This document shows positions 38,021 through 63,864 of a stretch of DNA of 64,000 bases, piece after piece. Origin of the DNA: Bryocella elongata (GTDB lineage: Bacteria; Acidobacteriota; Terriglobia; Terriglobales; Acidobacteriaceae). The notes under the pieces are model-generated. The model searched no databases and had not been told where the DNA came from. It worked only from the letters and a program-made list of their open reading frames with translations. Each line of letters begins with the position of its first letter. Position 1 is the first letter of the stretch. The stretch is taken from NCBI RefSeq assembly GCF_900108185.1, contig NZ_FNVA01000003.1, forward strand, positions 62,001 through 126,000, in the 5' to 3' direction. Position numbers and translations under genes: made by a program.

Positions 38021-39118
38021 GTGAGCCAAAAAGACACGACTGCGGTTCCAACCCAGAGTTCTACGAGCGCAACCAGTGACGGCGCGGGGATTGACCCGGC
38101 GAAGCCGGCTGCGGATGCAGCCGCCCCTGCTCAGGCAGGCAAAGCGGCAGACAAAAAGCGCGTGTCGAAGGTAGTCGACGACAAGCGCTTCAAGATCTTC
38201 TCCGGATCGGCAAACAGGCCGTTGGCGGAGGAGGTCGGGAAGTTTCTCGGTGTACCCGTCGGCGAGACGCGCCTGGTGCGCTTCTCCGACGGCGAGACCC
38301 ACTTCCAGCTCCTTGAAAACGTGCGCGGTGTGGATGTCTTCGTCATCCAGCCCACCTGCCATCCGGTCGATCAGAACCTGATGGAGCTTCTGATCATGAT
38401 CGACGCGCTGCGACGCGCTTCGGCCGGACGCATCACCGCCGTGGTTCCGTACTACGGCTATGCCCGCCAGGACCGCAAAGACAAGCCCCGTGTGGCAATC
38501 ACGTCGAAGCTGGTTGCTGACCTGATGGTCAGTGCCGGAGCGCAGCGAGCGCTCTTCGTCGACCTGCATGCAGCCCAGATTCAGGGCTTCTTCAATATTC
38601 CCGTGGATCATCTGTTCGCCAGCCCGGTGCTGGTGAGCTACTTCCGCGACATGAACCTGCCGAACCTGACCGTGGTCAGCCCGGACGCCGGCGGCGTAGA
38701 GCGTGCGCGCTTCTTCGCCAAGAAGCTGGAAGTGCCGCTGGCCATCGTCGACAAGCGCAGGACAGACATCAACGTCACCGAGGTGATGAACGTGATCGGT
38801 GATGTAAAGGGCAGGACCTGCCTCATCCTCGACGACATCGTCGATACGGCAGGTACGCTGGTGAAGACCGCCGAGGCATTGCTGGACCAGGGCGCGGACC
38901 GCGTACTGGCCTGCGCCTCGCACGCCGTGCTGAGTGGCCCGGCCGTGGAGCGCATTACGAACTCCCGCCTCGAGCAGCTGGTGGTAACCAACACCATCCC
39001 TCTGAGCGACGCCGGGCAGAAGCTTGAAAAGATCAAGGTGCTTTCGATCGCCGGCCTGCTGGGCCGCGCCATTGAAAACATCCACCTGGAGACGTCGGTA
39101 TCGACGCTCTTCAACTAG
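38021..39118 (+). CDS. prs: Ribose-phosphate pyrophosphokinase with N-terminal extension
   Basis: Prs makes PRPP from ribose-5-phosphate and ATP for nucleotide, His and Trp synthesis. The conserved enzyme starts near FKIFSGSANRPLAEEVGKFL. Signatures include FSDGETHFQLLENVRG, RRASAGRITAVVPYYGYARQ, DLHAAQIQGFFNIPVDHLF and LILDDIVDTAGTL (PRPP loop). A 50-residue Ala/Pro/Lys-rich N-terminal extension is present from the GTG at 38021; E. coli Prs has none. No ATG lies between the GTG and the core, and a GTG at about 38165 is another possible start. A long inverted repeat follows the stop. Confidence 0.93.
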   Translation: MSQKDTTAVPTQSSTSATSDGAGIDPAKPAADAAAPAQAGKAADKKRVSKVVDDKRFKIFSGSANRPLAEEVGKFLGVPVGETRLVRFSDGETHFQLLENVRGVDVFVIQPTCHPVDQNLMELLIMIDALRRASAGRITAVVPYYGYARQDRKDKPRVAITSKLVADLMVSAGAQRALFVDLHAAQIQGFFNIPVDHLFASPVLVSYFRDMNLPNLTVVSPDAGGVERARFFAKKLEVPLAIVDKRRTDINVTEVMNVIGDVKGRTCLILDDIVDTAGTLVKTAEALLDQGADRVLACASHAVLSGPAVERITNSRLEQLVVTNTIPLSDAGQKLEKIKVLSIAGLLGRAIENIHLETSVSTLFN

Positions 39119-39120
39119 AG

Positions 39121-39273
39121 GCAAGGGATTAGGGGTCAGGGATTAGGGATTAGCAAGAGCATCCCTCCTGACATCGGTTCCAATCACAGCGGCGTGAGCC
39201 GCAAAGGGAGTGAAGGAGCAGCGAGGCACGAGCGGATTTGGCTAATCCCTAATCCCTGTTCCCTCATCCCTGC
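39121..39273 (+). repeat. Long inverted repeat with GGGATTAG words between prs and rplY
   Basis: The left arm (39121-39154) and right arm (39241-39273) are near-perfect reverse complements over about 33 bp. The right half is exact (CAGGGATTAGGGATTAGC). The loop is 86 nt. Each arm contains the word GGGATTAG repeated. It sits between the prs stop and the rplY start. Confidence 0.88.
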
Positions 39274-39298
39274 TCTTTGCGCCCGAAAGGAAAGCACA

Positions 39299-39973
39299 AT
39301 GGCAGACAAGACAGTTAGCGCAGTGGTTGCAACCCCGCGCACCGGTACCTTCAATAAGAACCATGCACGTCGGGTGCGCGTGTCGGGCCTGATCCCGGCC
39401 GTCGTTTACGGCGCAGGACTTCCCTCGGTAGCGGTCACGGTGGACCCCAAGGTCATCACCAAGATCCTGCACTCCGATTCCGGCCACAACACGCTGTTCG
39501 ATCTCTCCATCGAAGGCGCACCTGCGGCGAAGGGCATGATCGTCGACTGGCAGAACGAGCCTATCAAGGGTCACCTGCTGCACATCGACATCAAGCGCAT
39601 CGCGATGGACAAGATGATGCGCGTCAGCGTTCCCGTACAGCTGGTCGGTACCCCGGCTGGCGTGAAGACCGGCGGTGGCATCCTGAGCCAGGTTCTGCAC
39701 GAAGTCGAGATCGACTGCCTCCCGAACGACATCCCGAGCCACATCGACATCGACGTGACCGGACTCGAGGTTGGCCAGGCGATCCACATCTCCGAGCTTC
39801 CCCACACCGCCAGCTACAAGTTCATCGGCGGCGAAAACACGATGGTTGCGCACATCACGATCTCCAAGGCTGAGGCCGAGGCAGAAGCGGGTGTGGCTGC
39901 TCCGGCTGAGCCGGTTGTGGCGAAGAAGGGCAAGCAGGACGCTGAGAAGCCCGCCGCAGACAAGAAGAAGTAG
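39299..39973 (+). CDS. rplY: 50S ribosomal protein L25 (Ctc form)
   Basis: L25 binds 5S rRNA; this is the long Ctc-type form (224 residues). The ATG at 39299 has AAAGGAAA 7 nt upstream. An upstream in-frame start at 39194 would translate through the inverted repeat and is rejected. NHARRVRVSGLIPAVVYGAG and HLLHIDIKRIAMDKMMRVSV mark the 5S-binding domain. VEIDCLPNDIPSHIDIDVTG marks the C-terminal domain. The tail is Ala/Glu/Lys-rich. The order prs, rplY, pth is widely conserved in bacteria. It is flanked on both sides by inverted repeats. Confidence 0.95.
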   Translation: MADKTVSAVVATPRTGTFNKNHARRVRVSGLIPAVVYGAGLPSVAVTVDPKVITKILHSDSGHNTLFDLSIEGAPAAKGMIVDWQNEPIKGHLLHIDIKRIAMDKMMRVSVPVQLVGTPAGVKTGGGILSQVLHEVEIDCLPNDIPSHIDIDVTGLEVGQAIHISELPHTASYKFIGGENTMVAHITISKAEAEAEAGVAAPAEPVVAKKGKQDAEKPAADKKK

Positions 39974-39978
39974 TTCCG

Positions 39979-40067
39979 AAGTGAGTAGAGAGCAGTGAGC
40001 AACGAGTAGTGAAGGCAAGCATGAGCATCGAAATGTCTACTCACTCGTCACTGACCTCTACTCACTC
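39979..40067 (+). repeat. Inverted repeat with GTGAGTAGAG words between rplY and pth
   Basis: The left arm (about 39979-40013) and right arm (about 40035-40067) pair over about 30 bp with a few mismatches and a 3-nt bulge. Both arms are made of GTGAGTAG/CAGTGA words. The loop is about 20 nt, and the pth ATG follows after 22 nt. Confidence 0.82.
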
Positions 40068-40088
40068 GCTCCTTTCCGGAGCGGCAGC

Positions 40089-40682
40089 ATGAAGCTGATC
40101 GTAGGGCTTGGCAATCCTGGAGCGGAGTACGAGTTCACTCCGCACAACGCCGGGTTTCTAGCCATCGACCGGCTCGCTCTGGTGGCGGGCGCTACGGTCA
40201 GCAATCGGCGAGGCAGGGCCTTGACGGGCAAGGGACGGCTGGCAGGGGAAGACGTCCTGCTGGCGAAGCCTGAGACCTTCATGAACCTGAGCGGGCTTTC
40301 GATCGCCGCGCTGTTGAAGGAGTTAGAGCTTCAAGTCGAGGACCTGATCGTCCTCTACGACGAGCTCGCAATTCCGCTGGGTTCGATTCGCGTACGCGAG
40401 CGAGGTTCAGCGGGAGGGCACAACGGGGCCAAGTCGGTCATCGGGGTGCTTGGAACGGAAGAATGGAAGCGCATCCGTATCGGGGTCGGGAAACCGCCGC
40501 TCGAGACCGGACGCGAGGTAAAGGCCGGCGGCAAGGACTACCTGCTTTCGCCGATGACGAAGCGAGAGCTGGCCACGCTGGATGTAGTGCTCGACGATGC
40601 GGTACGCGCCGTCGAGGCCGTGATGATCAAAGGGATCACCGCGGCGATGAGTGAGTTCAATAAGAAAGTGAGTAGTGATTAG
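40089..40682 (+). CDS. pth: Peptidyl-tRNA hydrolase
   Basis: Pth releases peptides from prematurely dropped peptidyl-tRNAs. The 197 residues match the family. MKLIVGLGNPGAEYEFTPHN contains the catalytic His (HNAGF). FMNLSG, VLYDELAIPLGSIRVRERGS and AGGHNGAKSVI are conserved blocks. The start is the ATG at 40089, directly after an inverted repeat. The 3' end of the gene (from 40667) is itself the left arm of the next inverted repeat, so the last codons (KKVSSD) are probably dictated by the repeat and not by protein function. Confidence 0.96.
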   Translation: MKLIVGLGNPGAEYEFTPHNAGFLAIDRLALVAGATVSNRRGRALTGKGRLAGEDVLLAKPETFMNLSGLSIAALLKELELQVEDLIVLYDELAIPLGSIRVRERGSAGGHNGAKSVIGVLGTEEWKRIRIGVGKPPLETGREVKAGGKDYLLSPMTKRELATLDVVLDDAVRAVEAVMIKGITAAMSEFNKKVSSD

Positions 40683-40750
40683 AGAGCAGAGAGTAGACCG
40701 CAGCAAGGTTGCAACGACGTCTACTCACTCCTCACTGAACTCTGCTCACT
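40667..40750 (+). repeat. Inverted repeat overlapping the pth 3' end
   Basis: The left arm (40667-40698) starts inside the pth coding sequence, and the right arm (40719-40750) is its reverse complement at about 24 of 32 positions. The words are the GTGAGTAG type seen between rplY and pth. The loop is 20 nt. Confidence 0.75.
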
Positions 40751-40792
40751 CAAAGAAAAACGCCAAGCCGTCGTGAGTTCGCTCAAAACGGT

Positions 40793-40809
40793 GCGGGGCA
40801 AAACCCCGC
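40793..40809 (+). promoter_or_regulatory. Short GC hairpin in the rpsF leader
   Basis: Arms GCGGGG (40793-40798) and CCCCGC (40804-40809) with loop CAAAA end 13 nt before the rpsF ATG. It could be part of an S6:S18-type autoregulatory leader, but the conserved CCG bulge is not established here. Confidence 0.35.
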
Positions 40810-40822
40810 GGAAAGAACAACA

Positions 40823-41287
40823 ATGAATCGCAGCTACGAAATCATGTTTATTGTTCGGCCGGACACCGATGAGGCCGAGACCGAAAAGCTGATCGAGACC
40901 TTCTCCGGTTACGTCACCACCGGTGGCGGCACGGTCAAGGCCGTCGAGAAGATGGGCCGCCGCCGTCTCGCTTACACCGTTCGCAAGTTCAACGACGGCA
41001 TCTACATCCTGCTGATCGTCGAAGCTCCGGCCTCGCTGATCTCCGAGATCGAGCGTCGTCTCCGCGTCTCCGAGCAGGTGATCAAGTTCATCACCGTGCG
41101 TACGGACGAGGAAGACAAGCGCGTTGCCAAGATCAAGAAGCACCGCGATGCGCACGTAAAGCGTTCGGCACTGCCGCAGGTGAGCCCCGAGGCCGCTGCT
41201 GTTGCTGCTGAGCCTGTGGCCGCTCCGGTTGCAGCTCCTGTAGCTGAGGCTCCGGCCCCCGCTGCGGCAGAGACCGTCACCGCGTAA
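40823..41287 (+). CDS. rpsF: 30S ribosomal protein S6
   Basis: S6 pairs with S18 on the 30S platform. The 154 residues begin MNRSYEIMFIVRPDTDEAET. The core has MGRRRLAYTVRKFNDGIYIL and the RNA-binding half SEQVIKFITVRTDEEDKRVA. The C-terminus has an extension of about 45 residues rich in Ala and Pro (EPVAAPVAAPVAEAPAPAAA), which S6 of E. coli lacks apart from a Glu tail. It starts the rpsF-rpsR-rplI operon. Confidence 0.96.
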   Translation: MNRSYEIMFIVRPDTDEAETEKLIETFSGYVTTGGGTVKAVEKMGRRRLAYTVRKFNDGIYILLIVEAPASLISEIERRLRVSEQVIKFITVRTDEEDKRVAKIKKHRDAHVKRSALPQVSPEAAAVAAEPVAAPVAAPVAEAPAPAAAETVTA

Positions 41288-61377: not shown

Positions 61378-63864
61378 ATGGATCGCAAGCTGGCCCTGGC
61401 GCTCGCGCTGTCTTTCACTATCCCTGTCTGCGCGCAGACCGAGTTGAAGTATCAGCAGCCGCCCGCGGCCATTGAACAGCTGTTGGATGCCCCGCCGACG
61501 CCCACAGCGCGTGTATCTCCGGACCGCAAGGTGCTGCTGATCGAGCAGCCCGCGACGTTTCCGACGATCGCCGATGTGGCGGCGCCGCGCTATCGGCTGG
61601 CAGGCATCCGGTTCAACCCTGTCATCAGCGGACCGAGCGTGGTGACCTACGACATCGCGCTGAAGCTGCAGCCCGTGGCTGGAGGCGAAGCGAAGGCCGT
61701 GACTGGCCTGCCGGCAAAGTTGAAGGCTTCTGACGCCAGCTTCTCTCCGGATGCGAAGCACATCGCGTTCGTGCGCACTGTGGATGCTCCGGCGACGATG
61801 GCCGGGCAGGAGCTTTGGGTCATCGATGTGGCTACCGCGGCCGCGAATCGCGTGGGTGCGGTGCACCTGAACTCGATCCTCGGGCATCCGTGCGAGTGGC
61901 TGCCGGATTCGACGGGGCTGCTGTGCAAGACGGTGCCTGCGACACGCGGCGCTGCGCCGAAGGAGACGGGTGTTCCGACCGGCCCGCATGTACAGGAAAA
62001 CCTGGGCACCAAGCGGCCTGCACCGACCTATGAGGATCTGCTAAAGACGCCTGAAGATGCCGCGATCTTTGAGTACTATGCAACATCGCAGCTGGCGGTG
62101 GTATCGCTGGGCGGCGTGGTAAAGCCGCTCGCGGTGAAGGGCGTAGTCGAAGGCGCAAAGCCTTCGCCGGATGGCCACTATGCGATGGTGTCCCTGATCC
62201 ATCGGCCGTTCAGCTACACGATTCCCTACGAGCGGTTTCCTCAGCTGACGGAGATTGCGTCGCTGAAGGGTTCAGCGTCGCCGCATGTTCTGCAGGACCG
62301 CCCTGCGGTGGACGATCTGCCTATCAGCCGCGACGCGGTGCAGCCTGGGCCGCGCGACTATAGCTGGCGCTCGGATGCACCTTCGACTGTGGTGTGGGTG
62401 GAGGCTGCGGACAACGGCGATCCCAAGATGAAGACCAATGTGCGTGACCGCGTGAAGGCTCTGCCTGCACCGTTTACCGGCGAAGCGACGACGCTGGTGG
62501 AGCTGGCGATGCGTGTGCAGCGCGGCTTTGGTGCGGCAGCAGCTGGCCCTGTGCAGTGGGGCAATGAGCACCTTGCTCTGGTGACGGAGTCGCGCTGGGC
62601 GGACCGCAAGACTGCGATTGTGGCGTTCGATCCGAGCACTCCGGACAACACGACGATGCTGTACGAGGGGTCATCGCAGGATCGGTATCACTCGCCGGGA
62701 CGGCCGATGACGGAGTCGAATGCGGCTGGGCATCCCGTGCTGCAGCTCACACCGGATGGCTCGGGGATCTACTTCTCATCGGAGGGCGCTTCGCCCAAGG
62801 GCGACTTCCCCTTCGTGGGCGTGATGCCGATCGCAGGAGGCAAGGAGTCGGTGCTGTTCCACTCTGTCGATCCTTACTATGCGCAGCCCGTGGCCCTGCT
62901 GGCCGGCAACACGCAGCTGCTGGTGCGCCGCGAGGCTGCGACGGAGTCTCCCAATTACTTTGCCGCGACGTTGAAGGCAGGTGCAGCGGACTTCCGCCAG
63001 GTGACGCACTTCGCTTCACCGTATGCGGGCATCGCGATGCCTACCCACCAGCTGCTGCACTACAAACGCGCCGACGGCGTGGAGCTGACGGCGACTTTGT
63101 GGCTGCCTGCAGGCTATGACAAATCGCAAGGCCCGCTGCCGACGCTGATCGAAGCCTATCCGGCGGAGTTCAAGACACGTGCCGCTGCGGCGCAGGTGAC
63201 AGGTTCCACCAACCGCTTCCCGAGCTTCGGTTGGGGCGGCTCACCGGTGTACTTTGCGCAGAACGGCTATGCGGTGATGGAGAACGCCGCGATTCCGATC
63301 ATCGGGGAAGGCGACAAGGAGCCGAACGATACCTACGTCGAGCAACTGGTGGAAGGTGCGAAGGCTGCCGTAGAAGCCGGTGTCGCAACCGGCACGGTGG
63401 ATCGCAATCGCATCGGCGTGATGGGCCACAGCTATGGCGCGTTCATGACGGCGAACCTGCTGGCGCATACGGACATCTTCCGCGCGGGCATCGCTCGCTC
63501 GGGAGCGTACAACCGCTCGCTGACGCCGTTCGGCTTCCAGAACGAAGAGCGCACCTACTGGCAGGCGCCGCAGGTGTACTTCGAGATGTCGCCGTTCAGC
63601 TACGCCGACAAGATCAAGACACCGATCCTGTTGATTCATGGCGAGGCCGACGACAACACCGGCACCTTCCCGATCCAAAGCGAGCGGTTGTACGCGGCGC
63701 TGCAGGGCCAGGGAGCAACGGTGCGGCTGGTGTTTCTGCCGCTGGAGCCGCATCACTACGGAGCGCACGAGAGCCTGCAGCACATGCTGTGGGAGATGAA
63801 TCGCTGGCTGGACACGTACGTGAAGCCGATGACGCCAGCGGTTGCTCCTGCGAAGAACGACTAG
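61378..63864 (+). CDS. Secreted S9-family peptidase (glutamyl/acylaminoacyl peptidase-like)
   Basis: The protein has 828 residues with a signal peptide (MDRKLALALALSFTIPVCAQ). The N-terminal beta-propeller (SPDAKHIAFVRTVD; TPDGSGIYFSSEGASPKGDF) precedes the alpha/beta-hydrolase domain. The catalytic triad is GHSYGAFM (Ser685), GEADDNTGTF (Asp758/759) and EPHHYGAHES (His792/793). The layout is closest to S9D glutamyl endopeptidase-like enzymes. A hairpin terminator follows. It is one of two S9 enzymes in this window, and the sequences are not closely alike. Confidence 0.9.
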   Translation: MDRKLALALALSFTIPVCAQTELKYQQPPAAIEQLLDAPPTPTARVSPDRKVLLIEQPATFPTIADVAAPRYRLAGIRFNPVISGPSVVTYDIALKLQPVAGGEAKAVTGLPAKLKASDASFSPDAKHIAFVRTVDAPATMAGQELWVIDVATAAANRVGAVHLNSILGHPCEWLPDSTGLLCKTVPATRGAAPKETGVPTGPHVQENLGTKRPAPTYEDLLKTPEDAAIFEYYATSQLAVVSLGGVVKPLAVKGVVEGAKPSPDGHYAMVSLIHRPFSYTIPYERFPQLTEIASLKGSASPHVLQDRPAVDDLPISRDAVQPGPRDYSWRSDAPSTVVWVEAADNGDPKMKTNVRDRVKALPAPFTGEATTLVELAMRVQRGFGAAAAGPVQWGNEHLALVTESRWADRKTAIVAFDPSTPDNTTMLYEGSSQDRYHSPGRPMTESNAAGHPVLQLTPDGSGIYFSSEGASPKGDFPFVGVMPIAGGKESVLFHSVDPYYAQPVALLAGNTQLLVRREAATESPNYFAATLKAGAADFRQVTHFASPYAGIAMPTHQLLHYKRADGVELTATLWLPAGYDKSQGPLPTLIEAYPAEFKTRAAAAQVTGSTNRFPSFGWGGSPVYFAQNGYAVMENAAIPIIGEGDKEPNDTYVEQLVEGAKAAVEAGVATGTVDRNRIGVMGHSYGAFMTANLLAHTDIFRAGIARSGAYNRSLTPFGFQNEERTYWQAPQVYFEMSPFSYADKIKTPILLIHGEADDNTGTFPIQSERLYAALQGQGATVRLVFLPLEPHHYGAHESLQHMLWEMNRWLDTYVKPMTPAVAPAKND

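Follow-up and report, generated by a model that had tools for sequence, protein, structure and literature searches.

Repeats built from seven-nucleotide units (heptads) are known from distant bacterial groups, with no agreed origin or function, and the STRR repeats of cyanobacteria are another known kind of repeat. Several systems have been described that resemble the hairpins considered here. The heptameric repeats of Xanthomonas/Nostoc (GGGAATC/GGGGA(C/T)T), reported by Rehm et al., are intergenic arrays that often comprise about four 7-nt units, lie on the sense strand just downstream of stop codons or on the other strand just upstream of starts, are rare between divergent genes and also occur as convergent inverted pairs (PMC4692102). 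Two Xanthomonas genomes were reported to contain 70 and 75 such pairs, with 83% of the sites common to both; each lineage uses one G-tract word, a G-quadruplex reading has been suggested, and according to the authors the role of the repeats "remains to be elucidated" (PMC4692102). In the trnL group I intron of Nostoc, Kaasalainen et al. described a P6b stem made of Class I (TDNGATT) or Class II (NNTGAGT) heptads, a single hairpin with heptads in both arms in which one class has repeatedly been replaced by the other, the stem remaining (PMC4476775). The TAACTGA heptads of Beggiatoaceae and Cyanobacteria (MacGregor, PMC4679880) are intergenic direct repeats, found mostly before start codons, the main genome having a single inverted pair; their reverse complement, TCAGTTA, has AG once per seven bases. 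The REP, GTAG and CGTC palindromes are short inverted repeats that follow genes in co-directional or convergent arrangement, and form tagged families, some of them tied to a transposase; as described, they have no heptad build (PMC3733652).

The locus analysed here is the prs-rplY-pth-rpsF block of a 64-kb stretch of DNA (the window, in which position 1 is the first letter). Its features, with the gene names of the original prediction, are as follows.

38021..39118, forward strand: prs, a name consistent with the translation
39124..39154, forward strand: 5' arm of hairpin 1, directly 3' of the prs stop codon; units AGGGATT, AGGGGTC, AGGGATT and AGGGATT, then AG
39189..39291, forward strand: conserved rplY leader (GCGGC hairpin, AAAGGGAG ... 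GCCCGAAAGGA), interrupted by the 3' arm of hairpin 1
39241..39271, forward strand: 3' arm of hairpin 1, the reverse complement of the 5' arm, within the apical part of the rplY leader
39299..39973, forward strand: rplY
39980..40009, forward strand: 5' arm of hairpin 2, AGTGAGT-type heptads, with the rplY stop codon 6 nt upstream
40037..40066, forward strand: 3' arm of hairpin 2, with the pth start 22 nt past its end
40089..40682, forward strand: pth
40667..40698, forward strand: 5' arm of hairpin 3, AGTGAGT-type heptads, covering the last pth codons and the stop codon
40719..40750, forward strand: 3' arm of hairpin 3, with the rpsF start 72 nt downstream
40823..41287, forward strand: rpsF

An inverted repeat had been predicted in each of the gaps after prs, rplY and pth, and all three were recovered, with arms of 30-32 nt, as ranks 1, 3 and 4 among the six inverted repeats found in the window. 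The arms of hairpin 1 (31 nt) are 90% complementary and separated by 86 nt, those of hairpin 2 (30 nt) are 80% complementary with a 27-nt spacer, and those of hairpin 3 (32 nt) are matched at 25 of 32 positions, a value derived from the score, with a 20-nt spacer. The loop sizes first given for hairpins 1 and 3 (86 and about 20 nt) hold, but not the size of about 20 nt given for hairpin 2; likewise, a near-perfect complement was found in hairpin 1 but not in the other two. The third repeat does reach into the coding end of pth, its 5' arm running over the stop codon. A common style had also been recognized across the three gaps, and the arms of all three hairpins are indeed imperfect tandem heptads, with AGGGATT words in gap 1 and AGTGAGT words in gaps 2 and 3; this build is the key feature that the original prediction overlooked. 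Tandem Repeats Finder reports a period of 7 and 4.3 copies in both arms of gap 1; the heptads of gaps 2 and 3, with lag-7 identities of 0.63 and 0.54, are more degenerate, and the program reports no array there. RNA folding of gaps 1, 2 and 3 gave -88.8, -39.8 and -37.2 kcal/mol (z of -6.6, -3.65 and -4.8), and for each gap none of 200 shuffles folded equally well.

The view that these are not simple terminators was borne out, as no terminator-like site, meaning a G+C-rich stem with a T run behind it, was found in 38900-41000, where shuffles gave a mean of 1.6 sites; a sigma-70-like site was not found in that interval either. At gathering thresholds, Rfam models matched only two tRNAs in the whole window, and the seven weak matches obtained up to E=5 in 39100-40830 all lie under the cut-offs and look like chance. 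Elsewhere in the window, the two halves of a perfect 17-nt inverted repeat, at 63505-63521 and 63679-63695, are 157 nt apart.

The three hairpins are part of a genome-wide, dispersed family of AG-phased heptad hairpins in this genome, which belongs to the Granulicella group. Its 5.67 Mb contain 53 matches to GGGATTAGGGATTAG with at most one mismatch, and 135 matches to AGTGAGTAGTGAGTAG with at most three mismatches (48 with at most one) against 35 for a backwards control; overlapping matches inside one array are counted separately in these numbers, and the backwards control of the GGGATTAGGGATTAG search carries no information, since reversing a GGGATTA-type repeat merely shifts its phase. Recent local duplication alone, named beforehand as one of the findings that would speak against the prediction, is ruled out by this dispersal of the words. 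Among the related genomes, the AGTGAGT pattern, with at most one mismatch allowed, matches 22 times in G017 but nowhere in G002, G006, G010 and G014, and AGACAGTAGACAGTAG has 36 matches in G018, 18 in G007, 9 in the genome of the window and none in G002 and G010. Inverted repeats were collected from samples of own and related sequence totalling 1.36 Mb and from targeted own loci; the lag at which they best match themselves is 7 in 41 of them (42 rows, less one masked row of Ns), and any one of the remaining lags between 4 and 12 is best in 1-7. In the genome of the window, the neighbouring genes, named by eye from their translations, include rimP-nusA, atpD-atpC, rpoB-rpoC, rpsB, rplN-rplX, rplF-rplR and atpE-atpB, and also less central genes. 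Codon adaptation of the genes flanking eight heptad hairpins (median 0.75, n=13) exceeds that of other genes (0.57, n=321; p=3e-4) in a 464-kb own-genome sample picked independently of hairpins, from which L062:18561 (inside a called gene) and L077:3232 (weak) were omitted. Just upstream of the window, on contig C7 of the same genome, three AGGGATT hairpins lie within about 1.2 kb (L018:1479-1602, 2117-2227 and 2533-2649), and a CTCGCAT heptad run at L076:9526-9591 represents a different class of 7-nt array in this genome.

Both neighbours were called for 38 of the 41 heptad hairpins, of which 32 lie between co-directional genes, 6 between convergent genes and none between divergent genes (p=1.7e-4); the background of 225 gaps (142 co-directional, 37 convergent, 46 divergent) is from the own genome only, while the 38 include other species, and such gap counts are rough because our gene caller spans 73% of bases. 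A mobile palindromic family had been proposed, and the dispersed, paired and intergenic placement, avoiding divergent genes, fits a REP-like family mobilized by a RAYT or some other transposase, as does the presence of Y1_Tnp (PF01797) matches in 26 of 28 genomes of the genus. GTAG, which along with CGTC is an unpaired tag of REP palindromes, is found within heptads, and no tagged foot was noticed by eye. The PF01797 counts (0-11 per genome), however, do not track heptad occupancy by eye, being low, for example, in G006 and G017, in which several gaps carry heptads; the loops are unrelated among copies or native to their site, and a single site can carry different words. The proposal fits loosely, in that copies are dispersed, and we regard transposase-driven movement as very unlikely.

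Orthologous gaps were drawn from the named genomes and their relatives, excluding gaps of less than 30 or more than 400 nt and loci L049-L060, L131 and L132, and identical gaps were counted once; the closest rplY found has 79% DNA identity. G016 (L036), a relative from the genus of the window, has gap sequences identical to those of Granulicella paludicola (L084), and an entry titled "Verrucomicrobia bacterium" (L083) has gaps identical to those of G018, which belongs to the window's genus, so that its title looks mislabelled. Comparable hairpins had been expected in relatives, and heptad hairpins are present at the same gaps, often with other words: they were detected in 37 of 193 distinct gap sequences and in none of 1544 dinucleotide shuffles. 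By gap, the counts are 7/52 for prs-rplY, 13/47 for rplY-pth, 2/53 for pth-rpsF, 4/15 for atpD-atpC and 11/26 for rplF-rplR, so that the majority of gaps have no heptad hairpin; the last two gaps were picked for the hairpins that they hold in the own genome, and the three-gap block on account of the original prediction, and the gap-only view overlooks hairpin 3 of the window, one arm of which overlaps pth. The three-gap block (22/152) differs from other co-directional gaps of the named contigs (0/148; p=2e-7). For the 12 genomes that belong to another family of the order, inspection of the extracted gaps by eye revealed no heptad hairpin.

The 37 hairpins have 31 different commonest words in their 5' arms, and one rule links the words: AG recurs every seven bases in the 5' arm. 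AG fills 83% of the heptad-phase slots of the 5' arms and 18% of those of the 3' arms, and AG exceeds CT in 35 of the 5' arms, with two ties and no case of the reverse; the rule is taken from the orthologous-gap set because most own-genome loci were fetched with AG-containing patterns. Within a species the arms pair with mean scores per gap of 13.8-25.6, between species with 4.0-9.5; of 322 comparisons between species, 33 score at least as high as the lowest within-species value for the gap concerned. For Xanthomonas and Nostoc it has been suggested that heptads are G-quadruplex elements: the words of gap 1 carry G tracts and the placement agrees with that report (PMC4692102), but four GGG tracts occur in just 4 of the 37 orthologous 5' arms, and within the window a quadruplex-capable word is restricted to gap 1, those of gaps 2 and 3 having no GGG, which leaves this reading barely plausible. 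A stop cassette was also considered and rejected: three-frame stops within the first 38 nt are enriched in heptad gaps (15/37 against 11/152 of the others) without being a rule, and two of the 37 arms have no stop at all.

How words change could be followed between two close species, G002 and G032, which are 93-97% identical around the compared sites. Of twenty G002 loci retrieved, ten lacked a counterpart in the retrieved parts of G032; 14 sites were sorted by eye: the arrays are kept at four, partly changed at five and made of another word at five. The identical arrays are those of L234, L237, L240 and L244 (L234 and L237 show a single array); one or two heptads differ at L176, L207, L236 and L245, and at L238 the 5' arm is interrupted by an insertion in G032. 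Both arms carry another word in prs-rplY, rplY-pth, L233 and L246, as does the one array shown at L232. At rplY-pth, AGAGNNT words in one species correspond to AGTGNNA words in the other, in both arms, and in G032 the aligned arms are matched at 30 of 31 pairs. Elsewhere, atpD-atpC shows a compensated double change (GGCTTAG/CTAAGCC in one species, GGATCAG/CTGATCC in the other) with uncompensated differences nearby, in the pair L109/L114 three-base parts of the heptads (TTA, CAG etc.) differ as wholes in both arms, and at L245/L251 one arm is altered and its partner is not.

We favour, with moderate confidence, an origin of the AG-phased heptad hairpins at the DNA level, by 7-nt slippage together with inverted template switching. 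In a typical hairpin the 5' arm, made of about four mostly AG-initial 7-nt units, lies close behind a stop codon, and the 3' arm, its reverse complement, further downstream. Slippage by 7 nt would exchange and spread units inside one arm, and inverted template switching during replication would let one arm be copied from its partner, with the result that the two change jointly while the loop may stay. The close match of the arms after a full word change inclines us to such copying, and template switching is known to create and maintain (RNA) hairpins (PMC8794818). The 5' array seems to be the older one, since a strict array detector found an AG array alone in 31 gaps and a CT array alone in 10, several of the latter having a 5' arm that failed the detector; in shuffles the same detector found AG arrays in 96/3860 and CT arrays in 13/3860. 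Two complementary arrays were found in 19 gaps and two non-complementary ones in three, where no clear two-word hairpin was seen by eye. The hairpins would then be retained or tolerated behind stop codons in the gaps of well-expressed core operons, whose transcripts would carry a long duplex.

Several observations weigh against copying at the DNA level. All changes come from species comparison, no mutation having been directly observed, the one-arm change at L245/L251 does not fit, and the sites are long-lived. Among 69 loop pairs, no inverted loop, one mark of template switching, was seen: 40 align better forward and 14 better inverted, the latter by at most 2.5. The replaced words might also be imported alleles, the whole gap being exchanged by homologous recombination with divergent strains. 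At prs-rplY the G002/G032 loop is strongly diverged along with both arms, as such import would predict, and replacement of the whole region has likewise been considered for the trnL P6b stem (PMC4476775). At rplY-pth, in contrast, the loop can be aligned (score 11 forward, 4 inverted) and the flanks, scoring 54 and 60 of 60, are 57/60 and 60/60 identical up to the edge of the gap; single-heptad differences occur too, and import leaves the heptad build itself unexplained, so that we hold it to be improbable. Slippage alone, for its part, does not account for the retention of AG, the continued occupation of the same core-operon gaps or the words common to loci of one genome. A dedicated system, for instance an enzyme using a short template that reads or writes AG every seven bases and rewrites both arms at fixed core-operon places, would produce lineage word dialects in a programmed rather than passive way; we think it doubtful.

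The serious rival to DNA-level copying is a functional RNA hairpin, an intercistronic duplex whose pairing would be selected whatever the word, for RNase III-type processing, mRNA stability or translational insulation; we consider it possible, though unlikely. The original prediction had likewise put forward RNA processing or translation coupling as possible roles. An RNA role is consistent with the persistence of the sites across the genus, the strong folding of the three window hairpins and flanking genes that are well expressed, judged by codon usage. Strong inverted repeats of any kind are frequent in rplY-pth (23/47) and rplF-rplR (16/26) compared with other gaps (17/148), but prs-rplY (9/52) and pth-rpsF (6/53) show no such enrichment of inverted repeats as such, and in a good number of relatives these gaps are free of hairpins. 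Selection on pairing at the transcript level would be expected to raise G-U mismatches above A-C mismatches; counts were 40 G-U and 49 A-C in 32 hairpins (p=0.40), and 44 and 31 in the 37 orthologous-gap hairpins (p=0.17), two overlapping sets. This test is weak, since it has no positive control and 99 non-heptad intergenic inverted repeats likewise lack a G-U excess (169 against 217 A-C), so that no class shows the expected excess.

Hairpin 1 also meets a second conserved structure, its 5' arm lying upstream of the rplY leader and its 3' arm inside the apical loop of that leader. The stem of the leader covaries across the family, with two-sided changes at three positions among 37 compact leaders (e.g. 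A-U in 17, G-U in 5 and G-C in 15), and no Rfam model matches the leader at gathering thresholds; it is possibly an autoregulatory leader of L25, the rplY product. The distance from GGGAG to GCCCGA in 49 leaders is 19-34 nt in 38, 54-63 nt in three and 73-85 nt in eight, and these eight longest leaders carry the 3' heptad arm, by eye. By geometry, leader and heptad hairpin would be mutually exclusive unless a pseudoknot forms, and their overlap may constitute a candidate switch. Two further conserved elements precede ribosomal protein genes. One, upstream of rpsF at 40761-40822 (ACCG ... CGGTGCGGGGC-GAACCCCGC), is shared by many relatives and may be an S6:S18-type leader, as we presume; the other is a hairpin before rplR, at the end of the rplF-rplR gap (CCGAACGTCG ... 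CGACGC ... TAGGAA; L201-L226), conserved in the genus.

The original prediction knew of no named family that matches, which was wrong in part, close kin being found in the Xanthomonas/Nostoc heptamers (PMC4692102) and the Nostoc trnL P6b stem (PMC4476775). With the former the Acidobacteria hairpins share tandem 7-nt units and, judged by our own gene calls, the intergenic position near stop codons, the rarity between divergent genes and the convergent pairs; unlike them, they use many words, mostly without four G tracts, follow the AG rule and can differ in word at one orthologous site. As in P6b, complementary heptads form both arms, and AGTGAGT fits NNTGAGT, but AGGGATT mismatches Class I at its first base, and many words at many intercistronic sites, outside any tRNA-Leu group I intron, replace the two classes at one intron site (PMC4476775). 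A search of titles and abstract openings on Acidobacteria or Granulicella, with most subscription journals outside its scope, did not find such hairpins; what is new is their occurrence in Acidobacteria, at several orthologous core-operon sites, with the AG rule and the paired replacement of words.

Taken together, these data indicate that several orthologous sites keep the hairpin as its sequence is replaced, and close species pairs reveal the small steps. They also call for caution: when the two arms of a hairpin change in step, selection on RNA is not the only possible reason. Because sites are kept with replaced sequence, close pairs are available and one AG rule runs across the words, strain comparison could separate slippage, template switching, transposition, recombination and RNA selection; the replacement of words at kept sites offers a way to study the origin and persistence of such repeats.
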